From positions 30,995-94,994 of IMG/VR virus record IMGVR_UViG_3300032296_003821: a stretch of DNA of 64,000 nucleotides. One strand, given 5' to 3'. The DNA is from a virus. Numbering within the stretch: the stretch's first letter is position 1; the number at the start of each line of letters is the position of its first letter. Position numbers and translations under genes: made by a program. The notes below the pieces were generated by a model. That model ran no database searches and had not been told where the DNA came from. It was given only the letters and a program-made list of their open reading frames with translations. Below are positions 2,625 through 50,333 of the stretch, piece after piece.

Positions 2625-2881
2625 GACCCTATATAGACATAGAAGTTACTGACAAATATATTATTCGCGAATTTAGCGAAAATATAGACCCAATTGAACT
2701 ATTATGGCATCGTGATGATGAAGATAGAACAGTTGAAATCCTAGAAGATACAGACTGGAAACTCCAATTAGAAGATCAGTTGCCTACCTCCCTAAAAGAA
2801 CGTATATTTATACCAAGACACGAATGGCATAGAGTCATTAAAGGAACTGGTACTTTAAAATTAAAAATACATAAATCATGA
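2621..2881 (+). CDS. Small cupin-like conserved phage protein
   Basis: 86 aa, starting in an ATGA overlap with the previous stop. The sequence is beta-rich: IIREFSENIDPIELLWHRD, WKLQLEDQLP, then IFIPRHEWHRVIKG. The spaced H/E residues and the IFIP...HRVIKG segment recall the second half of a small cupin barrel. I recall similar short proteins in T4-like phages, always uncharacterised. No enzymatic role can be assigned. The last four bases (ATGA) overlap the next gene. Confidence 0.55.
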   Translation: MRPYIDIEVTDKYIIREFSENIDPIELLWHRDDEDRTVEILEDTDWKLQLEDQLPTSLKERIFIPRHEWHRVIKGTGTLKLKIHKS

Positions 2882-3147
2882 AGCTAGACGGCTTAAAACA
2901 ATTGGTAAAAGAAGAACTTAAACGTGCTTTAAATGAAGAACTTAAAGACCAAGTTCCTACTGAACCTGGAAAATATAAAGTAGAATATACTATTGATGGT
3001 GGTTCAGGTGGTGATGATGAAATAGTAACTATCACTCAAGAAGATATAGATAATGCTGAGGGCTCAACAAAAATATGGCAATATAAAATTGATAACCATC
3101 TTTTTGGACGTGGTGATAGAGTAATGAGTGTTAAAAAAATAACATAA
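2878..3147 (+). CDS. Small protein with amphipathic leader helix (capsid-targeting candidate)
   Basis: 89 aa. The first 25 residues (MKLDGLKQLVKEELKRALNEE onward) are nearly the same as those of the gene at 49962, although the remainders differ. This leader contains an LNE tripeptide that matches the (L/I)xE site cut by T4-type prohead proteases. The remainder is a short acidic beta-rich domain (YKVEYTIDGG, EIVTITQEDID). An internal or packaged head protein is inferred. The biochemical function is unknown. Confidence 0.6.
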   Translation: MKLDGLKQLVKEELKRALNEELKDQVPTEPGKYKVEYTIDGGSGGDDEIVTITQEDIDNAEGSTKIWQYKIDNHLFGRGDRVMSVKKIT

Positions 3148-5839: not shown

Positions 5840-6685
5840 ATGAAAAAATCTCGTTTACTCGAAATCATACGTGAAGAAATTAGTGCTGTTTTACATGAAG
5901 GTGAAGCAGAAGAAAAAGCAGCAAAAGCTGCTGCTATCAAAGCTACAGATTTAGAAATTAAAGCTCTAGAAAAGAAAAAAGCTGACATGATGAAAAGCGG
6001 TGTCGCTGAATCAGAAGAACTTAATGAAATTCCAGATTTCGGTGGTCGATTTGATAAGCAAGTAGCAGCAAAATATGGTGAAGAAGATACACTAGAAGCA
6101 GCTATGGAAAAAGTTGTTAACAGAACACTTTCGGATAGAGGAATATCTAAAGCAGATGTATCTAAAATGGATAAAGAAGGTTTAAAAGGTCTTTTGAAAG
6201 CTATCCGTCAACAAATTTCTGGTAAAGGTCAAACTTCTGCTGTTGCTCAAGCTTTGAAAAAACAAACAGAATTTGATGATTCAGGAAGCAAATTACAAGA
6301 TAACCAAACAAATAATGCTATCTTAAAAGCATTAGGTTTAAAAGAACCAGGACAACGTGGTAGAAAAGCTGCTGAAAAACCTGCTGAAGCACCTAAAGCT
6401 AAAAAAGAAACAACTCCAAAAGCAGCATCTAAAGCAGAACCTGCAGATGATGAAGATGCAGCAGCAACAAAAGCAGCAGCTAGCGATTCAACAGCAAAAG
6501 AATTAGCTTCTACCCCAGAAGAAAAGAAAATTAAATTCAATCAATTCCTAGCTTCAGTTAAGAAAAATAAAGACGATAAAGCTAAAATTGATGGTATTTT
6601 AAAACTAGCAAAAGATAAATTCAAATTCGCTAAATCAATGATGGACGATTTGAAACGTGCTGCTGGTAGAGAAGTTGAAGCATGA
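5840..6685 (+). CDS. Ala/Lys-rich internal head protein candidate
   Basis: 281 aa. The N-terminal leader MKKSRLLEIIREEISAVLHE belongs to the recurring amphipathic helix family and contains IRE, a possible prohead-protease site. The body is low-complexity: KAAEKPAEAPKAKKE-type Ala/Lys/Pro/Glu stretches (about 175-235) between helical regions. Such highly charged, packaged-looking proteins resemble T4 internal proteins in style, not in sequence. It is the first gene after a late promoter. The stop (TGA) overlaps the ATG of the next gene. Confidence 0.6.
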   Translation: MKKSRLLEIIREEISAVLHEGEAEEKAAKAAAIKATDLEIKALEKKKADMMKSGVAESEELNEIPDFGGRFDKQVAAKYGEEDTLEAAMEKVVNRTLSDRGISKADVSKMDKEGLKGLLKAIRQQISGKGQTSAVAQALKKQTEFDDSGSKLQDNQTNNAILKALGLKEPGQRGRKAAEKPAEAPKAKKETTPKAASKAEPADDEDAAATKAAASDSTAKELASTPEEKKIKFNQFLASVKKNKDDKAKIDGILKLAKDKFKFAKSMMDDLKRAAGREVEA

Positions 6686-10948: not shown

Positions 10949-11812
10949 ATGCAAGTTAAACATTCAAAGTATAAAAACACGGGTATCCTCTTTGAACTTT
11001 TGGTTCGCCAGATCACCACAGACACACTGGATGGAAAGGATTCTCCGGCTAAAGATATACTTAAAAAATATTTCGTTAAGTCGGAATTGGGTCGTGAGTA
11101 TAAGTTATATGAAACGTTACTTAAAAGAACATCATTAACTGAAGGTAAAGCAAACGTTGTAGTAGATACATTAATCGAATCTTCTAAAACATTAAATAGA
11201 GGAGCTATTAAACGTCAGAAATACAATCTGATCAGCGAGATCCAAAAATATTATGATTTAAACGAGTTTTTTAATCATAAGCTACCAAACTATAAAATGT
11301 TTGCTGCATTCTATACGTTGACTGAAATTGCAAACGCCCAACACACTGTTGACCCTGATCAAGCTATCAACAATAAAGTAACTATTTTAGAGCATTTAAC
11401 TGCTGCTAAAATTGAAGAAAATAAAGTACGTGATGAGGTAATGGGTGAATTTGAAAAAGCCGATAAAGACGTTCGTTTTTTAGCATATAAAATGGTATTA
11501 GAAAGCTTTAATACAAAATATAACGACCTACATCCACGTCAAAAAGAAATTCTTAAAGAATTTATTACTTCGGTTGACAATAAACCACGTTTAAAAGAAT
11601 TTTACACTGCCAAGGTAGTTGAAATTAAAGAAGAATTAGCTAAACTCAATGCTAAAACTAAAAACGAAGTAACCAAAATTAAAATCAACGAAATCATCAA
11701 CATTATCCAGATACCTGCTAAAACAGCTAAAATTACTGATAATGATTTAGTTGACTTGTTACAGTATTATGATTTAATCAACGAGTTAGAAACTGTAAAT
11801 GGAAAAAATTAA
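10949..11812 (+). CDS. Conserved head-region protein between portal and protease
   Basis: 287 aa, largely alpha-helical and charged (KNTGILFELLVRQITTDTLDG at the N-terminus; ELAKLNAKTKNEVTKIKINEI near the C-terminus). No catalytic motif or membrane segment is seen. Its position between portal and protease corresponds to that of the T4 prohead core genes 67 and 68. I recall similar proteins in marine T4-like phages at this place, without a known role. A prohead core or assembly function is inferred from position. It overlaps the next gene by 14 bases. Confidence 0.6.
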   Translation: MQVKHSKYKNTGILFELLVRQITTDTLDGKDSPAKDILKKYFVKSELGREYKLYETLLKRTSLTEGKANVVVDTLIESSKTLNRGAIKRQKYNLISEIQKYYDLNEFFNHKLPNYKMFAAFYTLTEIANAQHTVDPDQAINNKVTILEHLTAAKIEENKVRDEVMGEFEKADKDVRFLAYKMVLESFNTKYNDLHPRQKEILKEFITSVDNKPRLKEFYTAKVVEIKEELAKLNAKTKNEVTKIKINEIINIIQIPAKTAKITDNDLVDLLQYYDLINELETVNGKN

Positions 11813-12302
11813 AGAAATAATTCGCAAGAAACTAGCAGAAATGAGCGCTACCGGAATGGGTGGTGCTTCGTTTTCTCCTGGTCAAGGAATGAATTATGCT
11901 ACTCCAAAAGCATTTAAAAAAACAAAAAATATTAAAGAAGGTCCTGGAGCTAGTTTAGGAATGGGTCCAAGTGCTGGTTCCGAAGGTGTAAAAGATAATG
12001 CTTACGTAAAACAATTCAAATATAAACTAGTACCTAAGAAAATTAAAGGATCTGGTTTAGAAGTTAAGCAACTTTGGGAAGATGAAACATTAAACGAAAT
12101 GAATGACGTTCAAAAAAGACGCATTGCTTCGTTAGACGAGATTGAAAAATTAATGAACGAAATTCAACCACTTGTTTCAAACGCAAAAAATGAGACAATT
12201 GAATTATATGGTGGAAATGCTGGTTCATATGATATCAATAAACCAATCGAAATAGTTTTAAGCTATTTAAAAGAAATAAAACAACTCTTATCAGAAAAAT
12301 AA
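11799..12302 (+). CDS. Head-region protein with amphipathic leader helix
   Basis: 167 aa. It begins MEKIKEIIRKKLAEMSATGMGG, a short form of the recurring leader helix with an LAE tripeptide, followed by a Gly/Ser-rich linker with GGASFSPGQG and YATPKAF. A helical C-terminal half (about 95-167) ends in ...YLKEIKQLLSEK. The gene overlaps its upstream neighbour and its TAA shares a base with the next ATG. By position it is likely a prohead core or internal protein. The exact role is unknown. Confidence 0.6.
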   Translation: MEKIKEIIRKKLAEMSATGMGGASFSPGQGMNYATPKAFKKTKNIKEGPGASLGMGPSAGSEGVKDNAYVKQFKYKLVPKKIKGSGLEVKQLWEDETLNEMNDVQKRRIASLDEIEKLMNEIQPLVSNAKNETIELYGGNAGSYDINKPIEIVLSYLKEIKQLLSEK

Positions 12303-35683: not shown

Positions 35684-38572
<2,889 letters not shown>

Positions 38573-39370: not shown

Positions 39371-40267
39371 ATGGAAAAAAAATATTCAATTTTTCATATT
39401 GAAGGTGGACTAGGCAAACATATTGCAGCAACTGCTGTTGCACGTTGTATTAAGAAAAACCACCCCAATAGAGATCTTATTATAGTTTGTGCTTACCCAC
39501 AAATATTTTTAAATTTAGACTTTGTATCTCGTGTGTATAGAATAGGACATACTCCTTATTTCTATAAAGATTACATTGATCAAAAAGATTCAATGATTTT
39601 CAAACATGAACCATATTTTACAACAGAACATATCCACAAGAAACTCCCATTAATTGAAAATTGGTGTAAGTTATTTGGTTTAAAATACAATGGTGAACAA
39701 CCCGAAATTGTATTTAACAAAAGAGAGCTTCAAAAATATCGTCAAATTTGGCAAGCAGAAAAACCAATATTTGTAATCCAAAGTAATGGAGGTATGCTAC
39801 CTTCTGATAGTGGCTTACCTTATCGTTGGACTAGAGATATTCCTTTTAATATCGTACAAAATATTGTAGAAAGATATAAAGAACAATACACAATCTATCA
39901 AGTCACTAGACCAGGATCCCCAGTAGCATCCGGTGTTATACAAATATCACATGAAATGGCTTCAATGGAATTTCTTTCTATTCTTTTAAATTCCGAAAAA
40001 CGATTATTGATAGATTCTTCATTGCAACATGCCGCGGCTGCTTTAAATTTACCTTCAACAGTACTGTGGGCAGGCACATCTCCAAAAGTATTTGGATATG
40101 ATATTCACGATAATATTGTAGCTAAAATACCTGAAGGTCAAAAACTACCTGATAGTTATTTATTTGATTATGATTTTGAAGGTCAAGTCCATGAATACCC
40201 ATATACAGAAGACTTTATATTTGATGTAGATACCATAGTAAAATCATTAACACGACAAAGTTTATAA
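39371..40267 (+). CDS. GT9-like glycosyltransferase (heptosyltransferase-type)
   Basis: 298 aa, GT-B fold. The N-terminal EGGLGKHIAATAVARCIKK resembles the glycine-rich opening of ADP-heptose:LPS heptosyltransferases (GT9). Midway, IQSNGGMLPSDSGLPYRWTRD starts the donor-binding half. RLLIDSSLQHAAAALNLPSTVLWAGTSPKVFGYD is the GT9 D-S-x-x-x-H-x-A-A-A-L pattern with the P-x-x-x-L-W-x-G loop. There is no membrane segment, so it acts in the cytoplasm. The stop shares a base with the sulfotransferase ATG, so the two are translationally coupled. The donor and acceptor are unknown; host LPS/capsule precursors or virion fibres are candidates. Confidence 0.7.
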   Translation: MEKKYSIFHIEGGLGKHIAATAVARCIKKNHPNRDLIIVCAYPQIFLNLDFVSRVYRIGHTPYFYKDYIDQKDSMIFKHEPYFTTEHIHKKLPLIENWCKLFGLKYNGEQPEIVFNKRELQKYRQIWQAEKPIFVIQSNGGMLPSDSGLPYRWTRDIPFNIVQNIVERYKEQYTIYQVTRPGSPVASGVIQISHEMASMEFLSILLNSEKRLLIDSSLQHAAAALNLPSTVLWAGTSPKVFGYDIHDNIVAKIPEGQKLPDSYLFDYDFEGQVHEYPYTEDFIFDVDTIVKSLTRQSL

Positions 40268-41082
40268 TGCAAAAGTTATTTTTTCAATCTAGTTTACCTA
40301 GAGCAGGTTCAACCCTATTACAAAATATTTTAGGACAAAACCCAGATTTTTATGTAACACCAACTTCCGGTGTTTTAGAATTGGTTTATGCCGCACGTAA
40401 CAATTATTCAAATTCTGCTGAATTTAAAGCACAAGATGATAACTTGATGCGAGAAGGATTTAGACAATTTTGCCATGATGGTGTTACTGGATTTTTTAAA
40501 GCAGTAACAGATAAACCATACGTAATAGACAAAAGTAGAGGATGGGGATACCATAGAGATTTCCTTGATTTCTTCTATCCAAACCCAAAAATTGTTTGTA
40601 TGATTAGAGATCCTAGAGCAATATTTGCCTCTATGGAAAAAAACTTTAGAAAATCCCCCGAATTAGATAAAGGTATAGTTAACCATGCAGAAATGTCAGG
40701 TGTAACCACGGAACAACGCATTGATATATGGGCTGCAGGTGTCCCGGTAGGAATGGCATTTCAGCGTTTATATCAAATGATTAAAGAGGGAACAGATAAA
40801 AATATGTTATTTGTAAAATATGAAGATTTAATGAAAGATCCTCAAGGTGAAATGAATCGTATTTACAAATATTTAGAAATTCCTTCATACACACACGATT
40901 TTGATAATATAGAACAAATTACTCAAGAAGATGATGCTGTATATGGTGTTTATGGTGACCATGTTATTAAACCTAAATTAACTCCTGTAAAACCTGATTG
41001 GAACGAAGTTTTAGGAAAAAATGCAAGTGGTTGGATCAAAAACAACTATGCATGGTTCTATGAATATTTCGGATATATTTAA
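40267..41082 (+). CDS. Sulfotransferase (PAPS-dependent)
   Basis: 271 aa. The 5'-phosphosulfate loop is LPRAGSTLLQNIL (10-22) and the 3'-phosphate motif is CMIRDPRAIFASM (111-123), with VKYEDLMKDPQGEMNRIYKYLEIP further on, all hallmarks of the sulfotransferase family. It moves sulfate from PAPS to a hydroxyl or amine, usually of a sugar, peptide or small molecule. An APS kinase encoded about 370 bases downstream can make PAPS. Coupled upstream to a GT9-like gene, so a sulfated glycan is a likely product (inference). Confidence 0.85.
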   Translation: MQKLFFQSSLPRAGSTLLQNILGQNPDFYVTPTSGVLELVYAARNNYSNSAEFKAQDDNLMREGFRQFCHDGVTGFFKAVTDKPYVIDKSRGWGYHRDFLDFFYPNPKIVCMIRDPRAIFASMEKNFRKSPELDKGIVNHAEMSGVTTEQRIDIWAAGVPVGMAFQRLYQMIKEGTDKNMLFVKYEDLMKDPQGEMNRIYKYLEIPSYTHDFDNIEQITQEDDAVYGVYGDHVIKPKLTPVKPDWNEVLGKNASGWIKNNYAWFYEYFGYI

Positions 41083-41091
41083 TATTTATAA
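41082..41091 (+). promoter_or_regulatory. Late promoter motif ATATTTATAA
   Basis: Begins in the sulfotransferase stop and lies nine bases before the ATG at 41101. Confidence 0.65.
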
Positions 41092-41100
41092 ACAAAAAAT

Positions 41101-41433
41101 ATGACAACAACCTGGACAATCCCAAGCTTAAAACGTTTAACTGATGACGGTTTAGTAGTACAAGCAACTTACATTTTTCAAGCTCAAGAACAGAATTTTA
41201 TCAACCGTAAAGTAGGTGATATGACTTTTTCTGGTAGTATAGATGAGCCTGGATTTATTCCTTACGATCAACTTACTCAAGATGATGTATTAGGGTGGGT
41301 ATTTGCTGAATTAGGTGATCAAAAAGCTGTTATTGAAGCCGAAATCACCCTAGCAACTGAAACCCAATACTCAGCATCAATTGCAAATCCATATTCAAAT
41401 GGAGTTCCTTGGAATTCACAACCACAAGGATAA
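41101..41433 (+). CDS. Small conserved phage protein (DUF7936-like)
   Basis: 110 aa. The pattern TTTWTIPSLKRL...VVQATYIFQAQE...MTFSGSI...FIPYDQLTQDDVLGWVFAELG...NPYSNGVPWN resembles a short conserved protein near tail-fibre genes of cyanophages and other marine T4-like phages. No enzymatic motif is seen. Because it has its own late promoter and sits between the sulfotransferase and APS kinase genes, it is likely a virion component and not part of sulfate metabolism. Confidence 0.55.
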   Translation: MTTTWTIPSLKRLTDDGLVVQATYIFQAQEQNFINRKVGDMTFSGSIDEPGFIPYDQLTQDDVLGWVFAELGDQKAVIEAEITLATETQYSASIANPYSNGVPWNSQPQG

Positions 41434-41451
41434 TATAAAATTTAAATAGTT

Positions 41452-41922
41452 ATGATTTATTGGTTTACCGGACAACCTGGAGCAGGCAAAACAGTTTTAG
41501 CAACTGCTCTAAAACAAGAATTGGACAATACTTTCCATGTAGATGGAGATGATTTACGTGCCATTTTTGATAACAAAGATTATAGTGAAACTGGTAGAAG
41601 AAAAAATATTGAGCTAGCACAACAACTAGCTCATTTTCTTCACAATAAAGGAAACAATGTAGTTGTTTCCCTTGTTTCGCCCTATAAAGATCAACGCGAA
41701 GAATTCAAAAACAAACTTGGAGAATCGTTAAAGGAGTTTTATGTTCATACTACTGAAATACGAGGTAGGGAAAATTTTCATGTTGAAAACTATCAACAAC
41801 CAACAGAAAATTATCTTGATCTAGACACTACAAATATTTCAGTTGAAGAATGTTTACAAAAAATTAGAAGTTATGCAGAATTGGAGCAAAAAAGTACACG
41901 TACAGTCATCACTGAAATCTAA
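41452..41922 (+). CDS. cysC: Adenylylsulfate (APS) kinase
   Basis: 156 aa, shorter than typical CysC (about 200 aa). P-loop GQPGAGKT (7-14), VDGDDLRAIF (30-39) and YSETGRRKNIELAQQLAHFL (44-63) are the APS-kinase signature, including the FSETGRR-like substrate loop. The reaction is APS + ATP to PAPS + ADP in the cytoplasm. The adjacent nucleotidyltransferase, DUF2061 protein and nearby sulfotransferase point to making and using PAPS. A leader AATAGTT precedes the ATG. The following gene overlaps in the +1 frame if its longer form is used. Confidence 0.85.
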   Translation: MIYWFTGQPGAGKTVLATALKQELDNTFHVDGDDLRAIFDNKDYSETGRRKNIELAQQLAHFLHNKGNNVVVSLVSPYKDQREEFKNKLGESLKEFYVHTTEIRGRENFHVENYQQPTENYLDLDTTNISVEECLQKIRSYAELEQKSTRTVITEI

Positions 41923-41938
41923 ACCTAATCAATATGCT

Positions 41939-42277
41939 ATGTTTATTGGTAGGTGGCAACCACTACACGATGGGCATAAAGCATTATTTCAACAAGCTTT
42001 AGATAAAGGAAAAAATGTTTGGATTGCGATTAGAGATGTTGAAACAACTGAATCAAATCCATTTAATGCCCAAGAAGTACTTAAAAATATTGGAGAAGAA
42101 TATAAAGAACTTTGTGGACAAGGTCGAGTTAAAGTTAGTATTATTCCTGATATATGTTCCGTTGAGTTTGGTAGAGGAGTGGGCTATGATATTATTGAGC
42201 ATATACCCCCTACTCAAGTAGCAGAAATCTCAGCTACAAAAGTACGTGAACAAATGCGTAAAGAAGGTAAGCTATGA
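41939..42277 (+). CDS. HxGH-motif nucleotidyltransferase
   Basis: 112 aa from ATG 41939. It opens with MFIGRWQPLHDGHKALFQQAL, the HxGH nucleotidyltransferase motif, and ends with ISATKVREQMRKEGKL, the ISxTxxR motif. These define the cytidylyl/adenylyltransferase superfamily, which includes NMN adenylyltransferase and, more distantly, ATP sulfurylase. An upstream ATG (41873) would add 22 residues and overlap cysC. Context suggests it might supply APS for CysC, but NAD or sugar-nucleotide chemistry is equally compatible with the motifs. It overlaps the next gene (ATGA). Confidence 0.75.
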   Translation: MFIGRWQPLHDGHKALFQQALDKGKNVWIAIRDVETTESNPFNAQEVLKNIGEEYKELCGQGRVKVSIIPDICSVEFGRGVGYDIIEHIPPTQVAEISATKVREQMRKEGKL

Positions 42278-42720
42278 AAACAAAAATAAAAAAATTCCAA
42301 ATTCGCTTTAATGTTAATAGCCAATCAGAACATGAACGTTGGCGCCTTATTGAAGATGGTAAAGAATATTTAGTATCTGACATCATCATTGATGGCCACA
42401 CATATACTACAATGGATTGGATGGAAGATCTTCAAGAATATAAATGGCATATCAGCTGTGAGGGATACGTTAATGTCCAAAACAATGTAGCATATGTTGT
42501 AACAGTGAAAGAAGAAGCTGTAATGACACGACATATTCTAAAAACATTATCTTATCGTATTTTAGGTACTTTAACAACTGTTTTAACTGCCTATGCTTTA
42601 GGAGTTTCACTTGAATTATCTTCATTATTAGGTGTAGGAGAACTTATGATTAAACCTACATTATATTTTTTCCATGAACGTGTTTGGTACAAATATATTA
42701 GGATAGGAAAAAAGAAATAA
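42274..42720 (+). CDS. DUF2061-type membrane protein with N-terminal phage domain
   Basis: 148 aa. The N-terminal part (1-80, KFQIRFNVNS...RWRLIEDGKEYLVSDIIIDG) is a soluble beta domain I recall as a stand-alone protein in marine T4-like phages. The C-terminal part (about 85-145) has two hydrophobic helices with the pattern KTLSYRILGTLTTVLTAYALGVSLELSSLLGVGELMIKPTLYFFHERVWYK, matching DUF2061. DUF2061 genes occur near sulfate-assimilation genes in Bacteroidota (from memory). The ATGA overlap with the nucleotidyltransferase ties it to the cassette. Confidence 0.65.
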   Translation: MKTKIKKFQIRFNVNSQSEHERWRLIEDGKEYLVSDIIIDGHTYTTMDWMEDLQEYKWHISCEGYVNVQNNVAYVVTVKEEAVMTRHILKTLSYRILGTLTTVLTAYALGVSLELSSLLGVGELMIKPTLYFFHERVWYKYIRIGKKK

Positions 42721-45068: not shown

Positions 45069-47177
45069 ATGGCAGAAACAATTGTATCACCTGGTGTATT
45101 AGCAATAGAGAACGACCAATCATTTATCACTCAAGGACCTGTTACAGCGGGTGCCGCTATTGTAGGACCAACAGTTAAAGGTAAAGTAGGAATTCCTACT
45201 ATTGTAACTTCATATAGTGATTATTTAAATAAATTTGGTGCTACTTTTATTAGTGGTAGCCAAACTTATACTTACTTTACTTCAATCTCAGCATATAACT
45301 ATTTTAATAATGGTGGTACTAGTTTACTAGTTACTCGTGTTGTAAGTGGATCATTTACCCCAGCAACATCTTCTACAATTCCAACTTCAACTGCATTAAC
45401 ATCGGCATCAGCAAATATAGATTTAACATTTATTTCTGCTAGTGTAGCAGCAGTAGGATCAGGATCTTTTAATTTAAATGGAATTACTTTATTTTATTCT
45501 GGTTCTGCACCTGCAAATACTGCTAATACAATATATTTAAATACTGCTTCATTTGCAGGAGCAACAGTAGCTCATTATGTCGCTACCTCCTCTCAATATG
45601 TTAATTTTAGTAGTTCAGTAGCTCCATATAGTTCATCTTGGCAAAACATTAGTTCAAGTATTAACTCACCTAATTTAGTGTTAACTTCTACTGGTTCTAA
45701 TGGATTACTAGGAAATTCTTATTTTTATACTTCAGGAAGTACTACAGTATATTTTTCTGGAGGTACAAATACAGAAGCATTCATTTTAGAAACACTATCC
45801 GAAGGTGAAATAATGAATAGTACTGGCCCTTCAGGTGCTTTTGGTACTTTATTAAGTGGATCTTCCGAAAATATTAGATGGCAAGTTACTAATACTAATA
45901 TTAATACAGGTACATTTACTTTAATAATTCGTCAAGGTAACGATTCAACTATTTCTCCATCTATTTTAGAAACTTGGACAAATTTATCACTTGACCCATT
46001 TGCTTCAAATTATATTGAAAAAGTAATTGGTAATCAAGTTGAAACTGTTCAATTTGACTCTTCAACCGGTGAATATTATGTTGAATTAGTAGGCAATTAT
46101 CCTAATAGATCACGTTATGTACGTGTTAAACAAGTATTAGTAACTACTCCTAATTATTTAGATAATTTAGGAACCCCTAAACCAGAATACACCGGTTCAA
46201 TTTGTTGGTTCTCAAGCGGATCTTTTGGTGCTGCTTCAGGAAAAAATACTCCTACAGGAATTGCTGGGGGATATTATGAAAATATTTCTAATAATAATAT
46301 TCAAGGACTTTCAGCAAACAATTATACTCAGTCTATTTCTTTGCTATCTAATCAAGATGCTTATAATTACAATTTATTAACTGCTCCTGGTTTAATAGCA
46401 GATTCTGTAAATTATCCTTCTCATACTTCTGTAATCAATACTATGATTTCTACAGTTCAAAATAGAGGAGATGCTATGACAGTATTTGATTTAGTCGGAT
46501 ATGGTGCTAATGTTCTTGAAGTTACATCAAATGCTTCAGGATACGATACTTCATATGCTGCTACTTACTGGCCTTGGGTTAAAACAATTGACCCAAATAC
46601 AGGAACTCAAGTTTGGGTACCATCTACTGTTATGATTCCTGGTGTATATGCCTTTAATGATAGTGTTGCTGAACCTTGGTTTGCTCCTGCTGGTATTAAC
46701 CGTGGAGTATTAACTAACGTTATTCAAGCAGAACGTTCATTGACTCAAGGAAATAGAGATTTACTTTACGAAAGTAATATTAATTCAATTGCTACTTTCC
46801 CTAATACAGGTGTAGTAGTATTTGGTCAAAAGACATTACAGAAAAAACCTAGTGCTCTTGATCGTGTAAATGTACGTCGCTTATTAATTGAACTTAAAAA
46901 CTACATTTCTCAAGTAGCAGATACTTTAGTATTTGAACAAAATAATGTAATTACACGAAATAATTTCTTATCTCAAGTTAATCCTTATTTAGCATCAGTT
47001 CAACAAAGACAAGGTTTAACAGCTTTTAGAGTAGTAATGGATGAATCTAATAACCCTCCTTCAGTAGTAGATCAAAATCAATTAATTGGTCAAATTTATC
47101 TACAACCTACTAGAACAGCGGAATTTATTATATTAGATTTCAATGTATTACCTACTGGTGCAACATTTCCTGCTTAA
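45069..47177 (+). CDS. gp18: Tail sheath protein A (T4 gp18-like)
   Basis: 702 aa (T4 gp18 is 659 aa). The N-terminus VSPGVLAIENDQSFITQGPVTAGAAIVGP and the C-terminal SALDRVNVRRLLIELKNYISQVADTLVFEQNNVITRNNFLSQVNPYL plus QPTRTAEFIILDFNVLPTGATF are diagnostic of contractile sheath proteins. The middle (about 100-260) is a variable Ser/Thr-rich outer domain. Polymerises around the tube and contracts during infection. A second sheath gene follows 46 bases downstream, with its own promoter. Confidence 0.93.
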   Translation: MAETIVSPGVLAIENDQSFITQGPVTAGAAIVGPTVKGKVGIPTIVTSYSDYLNKFGATFISGSQTYTYFTSISAYNYFNNGGTSLLVTRVVSGSFTPATSSTIPTSTALTSASANIDLTFISASVAAVGSGSFNLNGITLFYSGSAPANTANTIYLNTASFAGATVAHYVATSSQYVNFSSSVAPYSSSWQNISSSINSPNLVLTSTGSNGLLGNSYFYTSGSTTVYFSGGTNTEAFILETLSEGEIMNSTGPSGAFGTLLSGSSENIRWQVTNTNINTGTFTLIIRQGNDSTISPSILETWTNLSLDPFASNYIEKVIGNQVETVQFDSSTGEYYVELVGNYPNRSRYVRVKQVLVTTPNYLDNLGTPKPEYTGSICWFSSGSFGAASGKNTPTGIAGGYYENISNNNIQGLSANNYTQSISLLSNQDAYNYNLLTAPGLIADSVNYPSHTSVINTMISTVQNRGDAMTVFDLVGYGANVLEVTSNASGYDTSYAATYWPWVKTIDPNTGTQVWVPSTVMIPGVYAFNDSVAEPWFAPAGINRGVLTNVIQAERSLTQGNRDLLYESNINSIATFPNTGVVVFGQKTLQKKPSALDRVNVRRLLIELKNYISQVADTLVFEQNNVITRNNFLSQVNPYLASVQQRQGLTAFRVVMDESNNPPSVVDQNQLIGQIYLQPTRTAEFIILDFNVLPTGATFPA

Positions 47178-47223: not shown

Positions 47224-49347
47224 ATGGCAAATTTCACAGTTTCCCCTGGAGTAGCAATTAGCGAAATAGACAACACATTTTTGGCTGGATTACCAATCCC
47301 TCCTGGAGCCGCAATTATCGGCCCAACAGTAAAAGGACCAGTTGAAGTACCAACATTGGTTACTTCATATTCTGATTTTACAACATTATTTGGAGATACT
47401 TTTATTAGTGGTGGTAATTCATACTCTTATCTAACTTCACAAGCTGCTTTTAATTATTTTAATTATGGTGGAACAGCATTATGGGTAGCAAGAGTTGCTA
47501 GTGGATCTTTTACTCCCGCAACTAGTACTACTATTTCGAATAATGTAATAGCTGTTACAGGAGCTTTTTCATCAGCATCATTTAATGCTTCTTCATTTTT
47601 TACAGGATCTGCTACAGGATCTTGGTCAGGAATGAGGATTGAAATTCCTGGGGTGAATGACTATTATGTAGTTCCGAATAATAGTTCATATAACTATTTT
47701 AATAATTTAATAGACACATATTATTCTTCTAGTGGTGCTGCGACTAACAACAATACTGATAATTATATGGCTGTTGTAGTTTCTACTATTAATAACCCAA
47801 CAGCAGAACTTAAAACAATAGGCCTAACAGCTTCATACGACTCAGGAACTGATATCTTTACCCTTTCCGCTATCAACTCAGGAGTTTCTTTAAATGGTGT
47901 AAATATTTACAAAGATGCATATGCTGGAGGTGTTGGTACTTTAGTAGCTACTTTAGCAGGTGGTACTACTAATATAACTTCAAATTCATTTACTCTTGAA
48001 ACCCTTTCTGAAGGTATTATTATGAATAATTCAGGTTCGGAAGTTGCGGGAGCTCTAGTTTCAGGAAGTATAGCTAATATAAGATTTGAAATTACCAACC
48101 CAAATACTGGTTCAGGTACTTTTAACTTAATAATTCGTCGCGGAGATGATACAACTACTAATAAAATAGTATTAGAAACATGGAATAATTTAACATTAGA
48201 TCCAAATTCACCTAGATTTATTTCTAAAGTAATCGGTAATCAATTGCTTTCTTACAATTCTGTTACTAACCAAATGGACGTAACTGGTGATTATCCAAAC
48301 CAATCACGTTATGTTCGTGTAAAAGCCGTTAATTCATTAACTCCAAATTACTTAAACTCAAATGGTTTCCCTCAATCACAATACACTGGCTCAATCCCAG
48401 CTGCTCAAAGTGGTTCATTTACTGGTGCTATAGGTACTGTAAATCCTGTTATCAATTTGAATGAAAATATTACTCAAACAAATACTCAAGGATTAGCAGC
48501 AAGTGATTATAATAATATGATCGCACTTTTAAGTAACGCCGATTTCTACCAATACAACGTAATATTCACCCCAGGACTAATAGCTTCATATCATGCATCT
48601 CAAGTTAATAGCTTAATTGCTAATTCACAGAACAGAGGTGATTGTTTGTATATTCCTGATATGGTTGAATATTCAAGTAATGTTGCTAGTGCAGTAAGTA
48701 CAGCCCAATCATTTGACAACTCATATGCAGCAACATATTGGCCTTGGGTTCGTTTAGCAGATTCAGCTACTGGAAAATTAGTTTGGGCACCGGCTTCAAC
48801 AGTAATTCCGGGTGTATATGCATTTAACGATAGAGTATCTGCTCCATGGTTTGCACCAGCAGGTATTAATCGAGGTGGTTTAGGTACTGTATCATATGCA
48901 CAATATAAATTAACTCAAGCAGAAAGAGATACATTATATGCAAATAACATTAACCCAATTGCAACATTACCTAAACAAGGTGTGGTAGTATTTGGACAAA
49001 AAACATTACAAAAATCCCAATCAGCTCTTGATCGTGTAAATGTACGTCGTTTGATGATTGAATTAAAAGGATATATTCGTCAAATTGCTGATACGATTGT
49101 ATTTGAACAAAATACTATTACAACAAGAAATGTATTCCTTTCTAAAGTTACTCCATACTTAGAAAATATTCAACAAAAACAAGGATTATACGCATTTAAA
49201 GTTGTAATGGATGAATCTAACAACGGACCAGCAGTAATTGACCAAAATCAATTAATCGGCCAGATTTATATTCAACCAACACGCACAGCTGAATTTATTT
49301 CCCTAGATTTCATCTTACTACCAACAGGAGCTGAATTTCCGGGATAA
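47224..49347 (+). CDS. gp18: Tail sheath protein B (T4 gp18-like paralogue)
   Basis: 707 aa. It shares both ends with sheath A (VSPGVAISEIDNTFLAGLPIPPGAAIIGP; SALDRVNVRRLMIELKGYIRQIADTIVFEQN; QPTRTAEFISLDFILLPTGAEF), but the exposed middle differs (about 100-250). The core is clearly homologous while outer domains have diverged, as if the two make a mixed or alternative sheath surface. Both genes have intact reading frames and a late promoter, so neither looks like a pseudogene. Confidence 0.92.
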   Translation: MANFTVSPGVAISEIDNTFLAGLPIPPGAAIIGPTVKGPVEVPTLVTSYSDFTTLFGDTFISGGNSYSYLTSQAAFNYFNYGGTALWVARVASGSFTPATSTTISNNVIAVTGAFSSASFNASSFFTGSATGSWSGMRIEIPGVNDYYVVPNNSSYNYFNNLIDTYYSSSGAATNNNTDNYMAVVVSTINNPTAELKTIGLTASYDSGTDIFTLSAINSGVSLNGVNIYKDAYAGGVGTLVATLAGGTTNITSNSFTLETLSEGIIMNNSGSEVAGALVSGSIANIRFEITNPNTGSGTFNLIIRRGDDTTTNKIVLETWNNLTLDPNSPRFISKVIGNQLLSYNSVTNQMDVTGDYPNQSRYVRVKAVNSLTPNYLNSNGFPQSQYTGSIPAAQSGSFTGAIGTVNPVINLNENITQTNTQGLAASDYNNMIALLSNADFYQYNVIFTPGLIASYHASQVNSLIANSQNRGDCLYIPDMVEYSSNVASAVSTAQSFDNSYAATYWPWVRLADSATGKLVWAPASTVIPGVYAFNDRVSAPWFAPAGINRGGLGTVSYAQYKLTQAERDTLYANNINPIATLPKQGVVVFGQKTLQKSQSALDRVNVRRLMIELKGYIRQIADTIVFEQNTITTRNVFLSKVTPYLENIQQKQGLYAFKVVMDESNNGPAVIDQNQLIGQIYIQPTRTAEFISLDFILLPTGAEFPG

Positions 49348-49961: not shown

Positions 49962-50333
49962 ATGAAACTAGATAGCTTACGTACTTTAGTTAAAGAGGAG
50001 CTTAGCAAGCGACTAAATGAGGAATACCAAGACAAGTTCAAAATGGTAGGTATGCTTATTACTAATATTAAAAAACGCCCTCAAAAAGAAATTTTCTCAG
50101 ATATTCGTTCCATTCCAGGTGTTACAGTAGCATCTGTAAAAGAACCAATGGAATATAGTGAGCAAGATACAGAAAAATTTCAATCTATAATGACCGTTAA
50201 AGTAGATGGTCATCCATGGATTGCATCTAGTGGATTCGACCGTTCAAAAATGGAAGACATTCGCAAAGCTATATTAAAAGTAGAAGGAGTATTATCATAT
50301 AATGTAAATCCTGATAATATTTCTGCTCTTTAA
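49962..50333 (+). CDS. Small protein with capsid-targeting-like leader and ferredoxin-like body
   Basis: 123 aa. The leader MKLDSLRTLVKEELSKRLNEE is almost identical to that of the gene at 2878, 47 kb away, and contains LNE. The rest (about 28-123) has the beta-alpha-beta look of a ferredoxin-like/ACT fold: MVGMLITNIKKRPQKEIFSDIRSIPGVTVASVKEP and SIMTVKVDG...DRSKMEDIRKAILKVEGVLSYNV. It lies among tail genes yet carries a head-type leader, so packaging into the capsid is one hypothesis. Function unknown. Confidence 0.6.
   Translation: MKLDSLRTLVKEELSKRLNEEYQDKFKMVGMLITNIKKRPQKEIFSDIRSIPGVTVASVKEPMEYSEQDTEKFQSIMTVKVDGHPWIASSGFDRSKMEDIRKAILKVEGVLSYNVNPDNISAL

Follow-up and report, generated by a model that had tools for sequence, protein, structure and literature searches.

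A putative sulfate-activation and sulfation cassette among phage fibre genes, with a small NadM-like nucleotidyltransferase as candidate ATP sulfurylase

ATP sulfurylase opens both sulfate assimilation and sulfation, and to our knowledge its types are two and unrelated, Sat and CysDN. In the 3'-phosphoadenosine 5'-phosphosulfate (PAPS) synthetases (human PAPSS1/2 and the Sat-APS kinase fusion of Aquifex), an HxxH adenylyltransferase is coupled to the kinase for adenosine 5'-phosphosulfate (APS), and in the CysC-CysD-CysN operon the two-subunit CysDN is encoded beside the kinase. Viruses too carry cysC; two studies of such auxiliary metabolic genes report the viral CysC as distinct from that of prokaryotes and assign it to assimilatory sulfate reduction, and the accessible portions of these papers mention no nucleotidyltransferase partner, DUF2061 protein or sulfotransferase (PMC10914622, PMC9529941). 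Viral sulfotransferases have also been reported already (PMC8290583). Our literature search, whose coverage left out subscription papers and preprints, returned no description of such a nucleotidyltransferase partner, of an alternative ATP sulfurylase of this kind or of a phage PAPS-sulfation module. Here we describe a gene cassette at positions 39371-42720 of a 64,000-nucleotide window (30995-94994 of the 94,994-bp IMG/VR virus record IMGVR_UViG_3300032296_003821; 34% G+C), which combines a CysC-like APS kinase (KIN), an HxGH nucleotidyltransferase (NT), a PAPS-dependent sulfotransferase (ST), a GT9-like putative glycosyltransferase and a DUF2061 protein.

The cassette comprises six plus-strand genes, several of them overlapping or abutting in an operon-like manner. 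The original prediction, made from the sequence alone, had proposed a five-gene sulfation set; all five genes and every motif quoted for them lie on this strand where they had been placed, and a sixth gene, encoding a DUF7936 protein, had been missed. We regard it as probable that the cassette is a compact phage module for sulfate activation and sulfation. In such a module, NT, a NadM-like enzyme, would take the ATP sulfurylase step that otherwise falls to Sat or CysDN and convert sulfate and ATP to APS; KIN, which belongs to a lidless subtype, would convert APS and ATP to PAPS; and ST would move the sulfuryl group of PAPS onto an acceptor at the virion fibres or the surface of the host; this acceptor is most likely a glycan that the GT9-like enzyme helps to build. 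An accessory part in sulfate activation may fall to the DUF2061 membrane protein. A glycan is suggested as acceptor because of the GT9-like neighbour, whose family assignment is weak, and the virion is slightly favoured because the cassette sits among fibre genes.

Beyond this locus, it appears likely that NT founds a third family of ATP sulfurylases, one that is distinct from Sat and has no relation to CysDN. In this view the family has replaced CysDN in some marine Flavobacteriales, accompanies APS kinase in several bacterial phyla and was acquired by phages as a minimal PAPS unit feeding viral sulfotransferases. Evidence for the replacement comes from a single marine Flavobacteriales family (that of G082), surveyed in 30 genomes passing a completeness filter of 80%. 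APS kinase is found in 27 of these, NT in 7, CysD in 20 (over the cut-off in 17 and fragmentary in the other 3, mostly at the ends of contigs) and Sat in only 1, a genome that has no APS kinase. All 27 genomes with APS kinase carry exactly one of NT or CysD: CysD and Sat are both absent from the seven NT genomes, and NT is absent from the 20 CysD genomes (Fisher 1.1e-6, a value that overstates independence because the genomes are related and partly metagenome-assembled). Two of the NT genomes, G082 and G084, supplied rows to the NT search profile, and the other five supplied none. NT directly follows the kinase gene in all seven, as does CysD in the 17 genomes in which it is intact. Three NT genomes (G193, G354 and G178) share the order SprA-like, GcvH, TonB-like, cysC, NT, F6, CysQ-like, flippase and sulfotransferases; in G110 the neighbours on both sides are the same and the slot holds cysC-cysD-cysN in the orientation opposite to the flanks. 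Hence, by distribution and synteny, those members of the family that need APS and have neither Sat nor CysDN possess NT, one small nucleotidyltransferase where the others have the two-subunit enzyme, beside the same cysC, cysQ and sulfotransferase genes. A second complementarity test was precluded by the rarity of NT elsewhere (6/248 in an order-level survey and 1/101 in a second family).

A scan of 84,980 species genomes recovered 60 relatives of NT, and their contexts repeatedly point to APS kinase. The two are fused in the order KIN-NT in Acidobacteriota, some Bacteroidota and others, and in the order NT-KIN in Omnitrophota, Planctomycetota and WWE3, and they occur as adjoining genes in Marinimicrobia and Bacteroidota. 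PAPS synthetases resemble this arrangement in tying an adenylyltransferase to an APS kinase. The partner kinases at three loci (L172, L165 and L159) score over the NCBIfam apsK equivalog cut-off. A CysQ gene continues the set at L172 (TIGR01331 over cut-off) and L174, both with an Inositol_P match, and the former extends to Pfam-confirmed sulfotransferases. Of 50 NT-bearing genomes of many phyla, 7 contain Sat and 3 have a CysD match over the cut-off, which is supporting evidence only, since the genomes are partial. The suggestion that NT replaces ATP sulfurylase thus finds good, if indirect, support in gene fusion, in complementarity with CysD and in the replacement of cysD-cysN in the same bacterial slot. 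Phages show a comparable linkage, in that PHROG 10255, a "kinase" family of Stenotrophomonas and Xanthomonas phages, spans KIN and NT together, and isolate phages encode the two as one protein of about 245 amino acids. The fusion in these cultured phages (L197 5590-6321, L198 5584-6324 and L199 5578-6324) is very diverged.

The NT of the window (41873..42277, core domain from 41939; 134 aa; Pfam CTP_transf_like 4.2e-6) is closest by sequence to NadM, with which it has GRxQPxHxGH, NPF and the SxTxxR signature in common. Its score against the NadM model TIGR01527 is 28.1 bits, far below the cut-off of 181.2, and between the DI motif and S.T..R the profile alignment has 22 columns, about half of the 46 residues in NadM 1EJ2, a region that holds part of the nicotinamide mononucleotide (NMN) site of NadM. 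NT further differs from NadM in having IRD at the position of GSA, a new IPDIxSxxxGRGVGY motif and an APS kinase as genomic partner. Along with these motifs, the protein displays GRWQPxHxGH, NP and ISxTxxR; GRxQ..H.GH, the R of IRD, the P of NP, PD..S...GR..GY and IS....R are common to 35 viral and 22 mixed viral and bacterial rows. Both histidines of HxxH are invariant, and mutating the corresponding pair in human PAPSS1 abolished ATP sulfurylase activity, according to the accessible part of one study (PMC11697783). NT does not belong to the Sat family: its PF01747 match (E 0.018) is under the cut-off, it has GRWQPxHxGH instead of QxRNPxHxxH, and at about 110-160 residues it lacks the large Sat domains of the PAPS synthetases, whose kinase also differs from the lidless phage type. 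In a tree built from few columns, with many forks unresolved, most viral NTs fall into several clusters together with sequences of Marinimicrobia and marine Bacteroidota. The NT gene most likely starts at the ATG at 41873, giving a 50-bp overlap with the KIN gene. A sequencing frameshift at an A-run within the overlap, splitting a single KIN-NT gene, was ruled out because relatives of the window lineage retain the same two overlapping genes. Separately, a 1049-aa viral protein (L053 6406-9555), close downstream of KIN, NT and DUF2061 genes, bears an N-terminal second NadM-like domain with GRFQPFHKGH.

KIN (41452..41922; 156 aa; Pfam APS_kinase 7.4e-16) has the P-loop, DGDxxR, GR..NI and SPY...R elements expected of an APS kinase, and across 33 aligned viral KINs these are kept in the forms P-loop, DGDDxR, NKDYSxxGRRxNI and SLVSPYxDQR. 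Its AlphaFold2 model is of high confidence (mean predicted local distance difference test, pLDDT, 92), and in a Foldseek search of the PDB each of the best 50 matches is an APS kinase or a chain with an APS-kinase-like domain. The gene, first assigned as cysC on the P-loop and GRRKNI, is here called APS-kinase-like. In an alignment with the bacterial partners, the lid segment RDxKGLYxKA..GEIKxFTGI of ordinary CysC is absent from the phage and most Marinimicrobia KINs, where RGRExFHVxxYxxP occupies its position, and is present in most other bacterial NT-partner kinases. The missing RDxKGLYxKA..GEIK stretch defines KIN as a lidless APS-kinase subtype; the window KIN scores under the TIGR00455 (apsK) cut-off.

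The consumer of PAPS would be ST (40267..41082; 271 aa; Pfam Sulfotransfer_3 5.6e-25). It has both PAPS-binding motifs, the PRAGST and RDxRAIFASMEK regions, which are conserved in 22 relatives. Together with the structural matches of KIN and the context of NT, this supports the earlier idea of a set that both makes and uses PAPS. Relatives of ST occur in only 10 of 50,697 phage records (tblastn; a background figure). The gene immediately upstream (39371..40267; 298 aa) resembles heptosyltransferases and is called only GT9-like because its match to Pfam Glyco_transf_9 is sub-threshold (E 0.0066; 16.2 bits against a cut-off of 22); a sequence search of the PDB gave no match at E<=0.1, and GG.GK, Y.W.RD and KR..IDS are invariant across the 13 members of its family.

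The genes of the set recur together in related phages, as the original prediction had proposed to check. Among 80 KIN-centred viral loci (counts that leave out the locus of the window itself, L081), NT accompanies KIN in all 80 and is adjacent in 76; the gap is one small gene in L029, L035 and L036 and 2.3 kb in L062. DUF2061 follows NT in 67 of the 80, close ST homologues are found in 37 and GT9-like genes in 31. The intervening gene of L036 (8425-8778) is small and resembles haloacid dehalogenase phosphatases (FCDIDGTI), and L029 and L035 are spaced similarly. Conversely, 80 ST-centred viral loci include a GT9-like gene in 57 and KIN in 23, which makes ST and the GT9-like gene the core pair and the KIN-NT-DUF2061 triad an add-on that would furnish the donor. 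Of 50 triad contigs, 26 have a Sulfotransfer_3 match over the cut-off and 1 has a Sulfotransfer_2 match over it. Relatives of the tail-sheath genes were tried as a control set and dropped, as their contigs were too short. Phage contig L245 (304 kb) carries ST, GT9-like, lidless KIN, DUF2061 and NT genes; its KIN is 58% identical to that of the window, and its NT is 71-76% identical to NTs of Flavobacteriales and Nitrospiraceae, including 73% to an NT standing in for CysDN. The presence of this bacterial-type NT beside a lidless KIN indicates that the two NT subtypes take one and the same position next to this kinase.

Other functions for these genes have to be weighed against sulfate activation. 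Given that NadM is the nearest relative of NT, with GRxQPxHxGH and NPF in common, and that NadR likewise joins an adenylyltransferase to a P-loop kinase, the pair might act in NAD salvage, with NT as an NMN adenylyltransferase and KIN as a nucleoside kinase, perhaps countering an NAD-depleting defense. We hold this to be very unlikely, as the top 50 structural matches of KIN point to APS kinases, bacterial NTs are fused to kinases over the apsK cut-off, the segment that in NadM holds part of the NMN site is about half as long in NT, which has IRD instead of GSA, and NT alternates with CysD. Just as unlikely is a division of labor in which KIN would draw on APS of the host for PAPS and NT would activate some other substrate, such as a sugar phosphate for the glycan: HxGH enzymes do activate many substrates and a GT9-like gene is nearby, yet the APS-kinase fusions in both orders and the replacement of cysD-cysN leave those genomes without another known source of APS.

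A different question is what the PAPS is for. In the usual view of viral cysC, phage CysC raises host PAPS for cysteine synthesis, and the available parts of the published annotation of viral cysC and cysH take this course (PMC10914622, PMC9529941). An NT indeed follows nitrite/sulfite reductase and APS reductase (TIGR02055 over cut-off) in a Nitrospiraceae genome (L163), a true assimilatory operon. For the phages we find such a role improbable: no PAPS reductase domain is over cut-off in any of the 50 triad contigs, against 26 with Sulfotransfer_3, and in all 23 ST-centred loci holding KIN it lies on the ST strand, directly abutting in 17 (within 64 nt, frame end to frame end). These counts make it most likely that phage PAPS feeds sulfation and not sulfate reduction. 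The last step could also take a protein as acceptor, the same PAPS module supplying an ST that sulfates tyrosines of fibre proteins. The best PDB sequence matches of ST are protein-tyrosine sulfotransferases (4e-10) and the cassette stands amid fibre-like genes; nevertheless, Sulfotransfer_3 is a broad family and a glycosyltransferase-like gene is found in 57 of the 80 ST loci, and we consider this variant unlikely.

Besides the relatedness of the surveyed Flavobacteriales, several observations weigh against the proposed sulfate-activating role of NT and its link to sulfation. The solved sequences closest to the NT family are NMN adenylyltransferases (5e-8), and ATP sulfurylases appear among the Foldseek matches of the NT model only at E ~0.2. 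That model is of moderate confidence (pLDDT 78, with residues 99-110 below 50), and for this reason we draw no active-site or residue argument from it. NT and Sat occur together in three Nitrospirota genomes. No sulfotransferase is annotated within 6 kb of the fused KIN-NT gene in Stenotrophomonas phages DLP_6 and Bhz60 or Xanthomonas phage AhaSv. Finally, about half of the triad contigs have no Sulfotransfer_3 match, although a good number of these contigs are fragmentary and divergent PRCAST/PRSGST proteins are encoded on some. N-termini of the latter type lie near triads without Sulfotransfer_3 in L079 (10932-12248), L064 (2410-3057 and 8033-8605), L058 (13165-13953) and L054 (12919-13623); Pfam and PHROGs did not settle whether these are sulfotransferases, save weakly for L054, and they were left out of the counts.

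If the proposed role of NT holds, this third type, of some 110-160 residues, would be the smallest ATP sulfurylase and would account for the supply of APS in organisms that possess APS kinase but neither Sat nor CysDN. Likewise, viral cysC, widely counted under assimilatory sulfate reduction, would be recast as part of a module for surface or virion sulfation, an idea open to testing in laboratory strains.

The last gene of the cassette (42274..42720; 148 aa; Pfam DUF2061 1.9e-14) had been taken for a DUF2061 membrane protein. The match is indeed well over cut-off (54.3 bits against 23.1) but is confined to residues 88-138; the protein consists of two modules of about 75 aa, an N-terminal one of about 80 aa with no assigned function and the C-terminal DUF2061 membrane domain. 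The halves are encoded by separate genes in L020 (1514-1967) and L061 (8835-9286). In other phages the N-terminal module of about 77 aa has a gene of its own in some cases and occurs without DUF2061 in others (L038-L048). DUF2061 accompanies both forms of sulfate activation in bacteria: it is fused to the CysC-type kinase with NT downstream (L190 and L191), and it precedes cysC-cysD-cysN directly in G183 and with two genes between in G149 (loci L206 and L207).

The remaining gene, between ST and KIN on the plus strand (41101..41433; 110 aa; Pfam DUF7936 3.5e-16; phrog_7802), is found in only 6 of 81 loci, those of the closest relatives, and its product probably stands outside the sulfation module. 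The cassette is flanked on one side by fibre-like genes with TGSLxxSGS and collagen-like GATG repeats, among them one for a 962-aa protein (35684-38572) in which GATG repeats are followed by many short NTASGxYS/GGG repeats, and on the other by two adjacent tail-sheath-like genes (45069-47177 and 47224-49347; 702 and 707 aa). Elsewhere in the window, many small proteins (1975-2382, 2878-3147, 5840-6685, 11799-12302 and 49962-50333) have in common a short N-terminal amphipathic stretch, e.g., MKLDGLKQLVKEELKRALNE or MDRLDKLINEVLSEE, which may be reminiscent of the peptides that target T4 internal proteins to the capsid.

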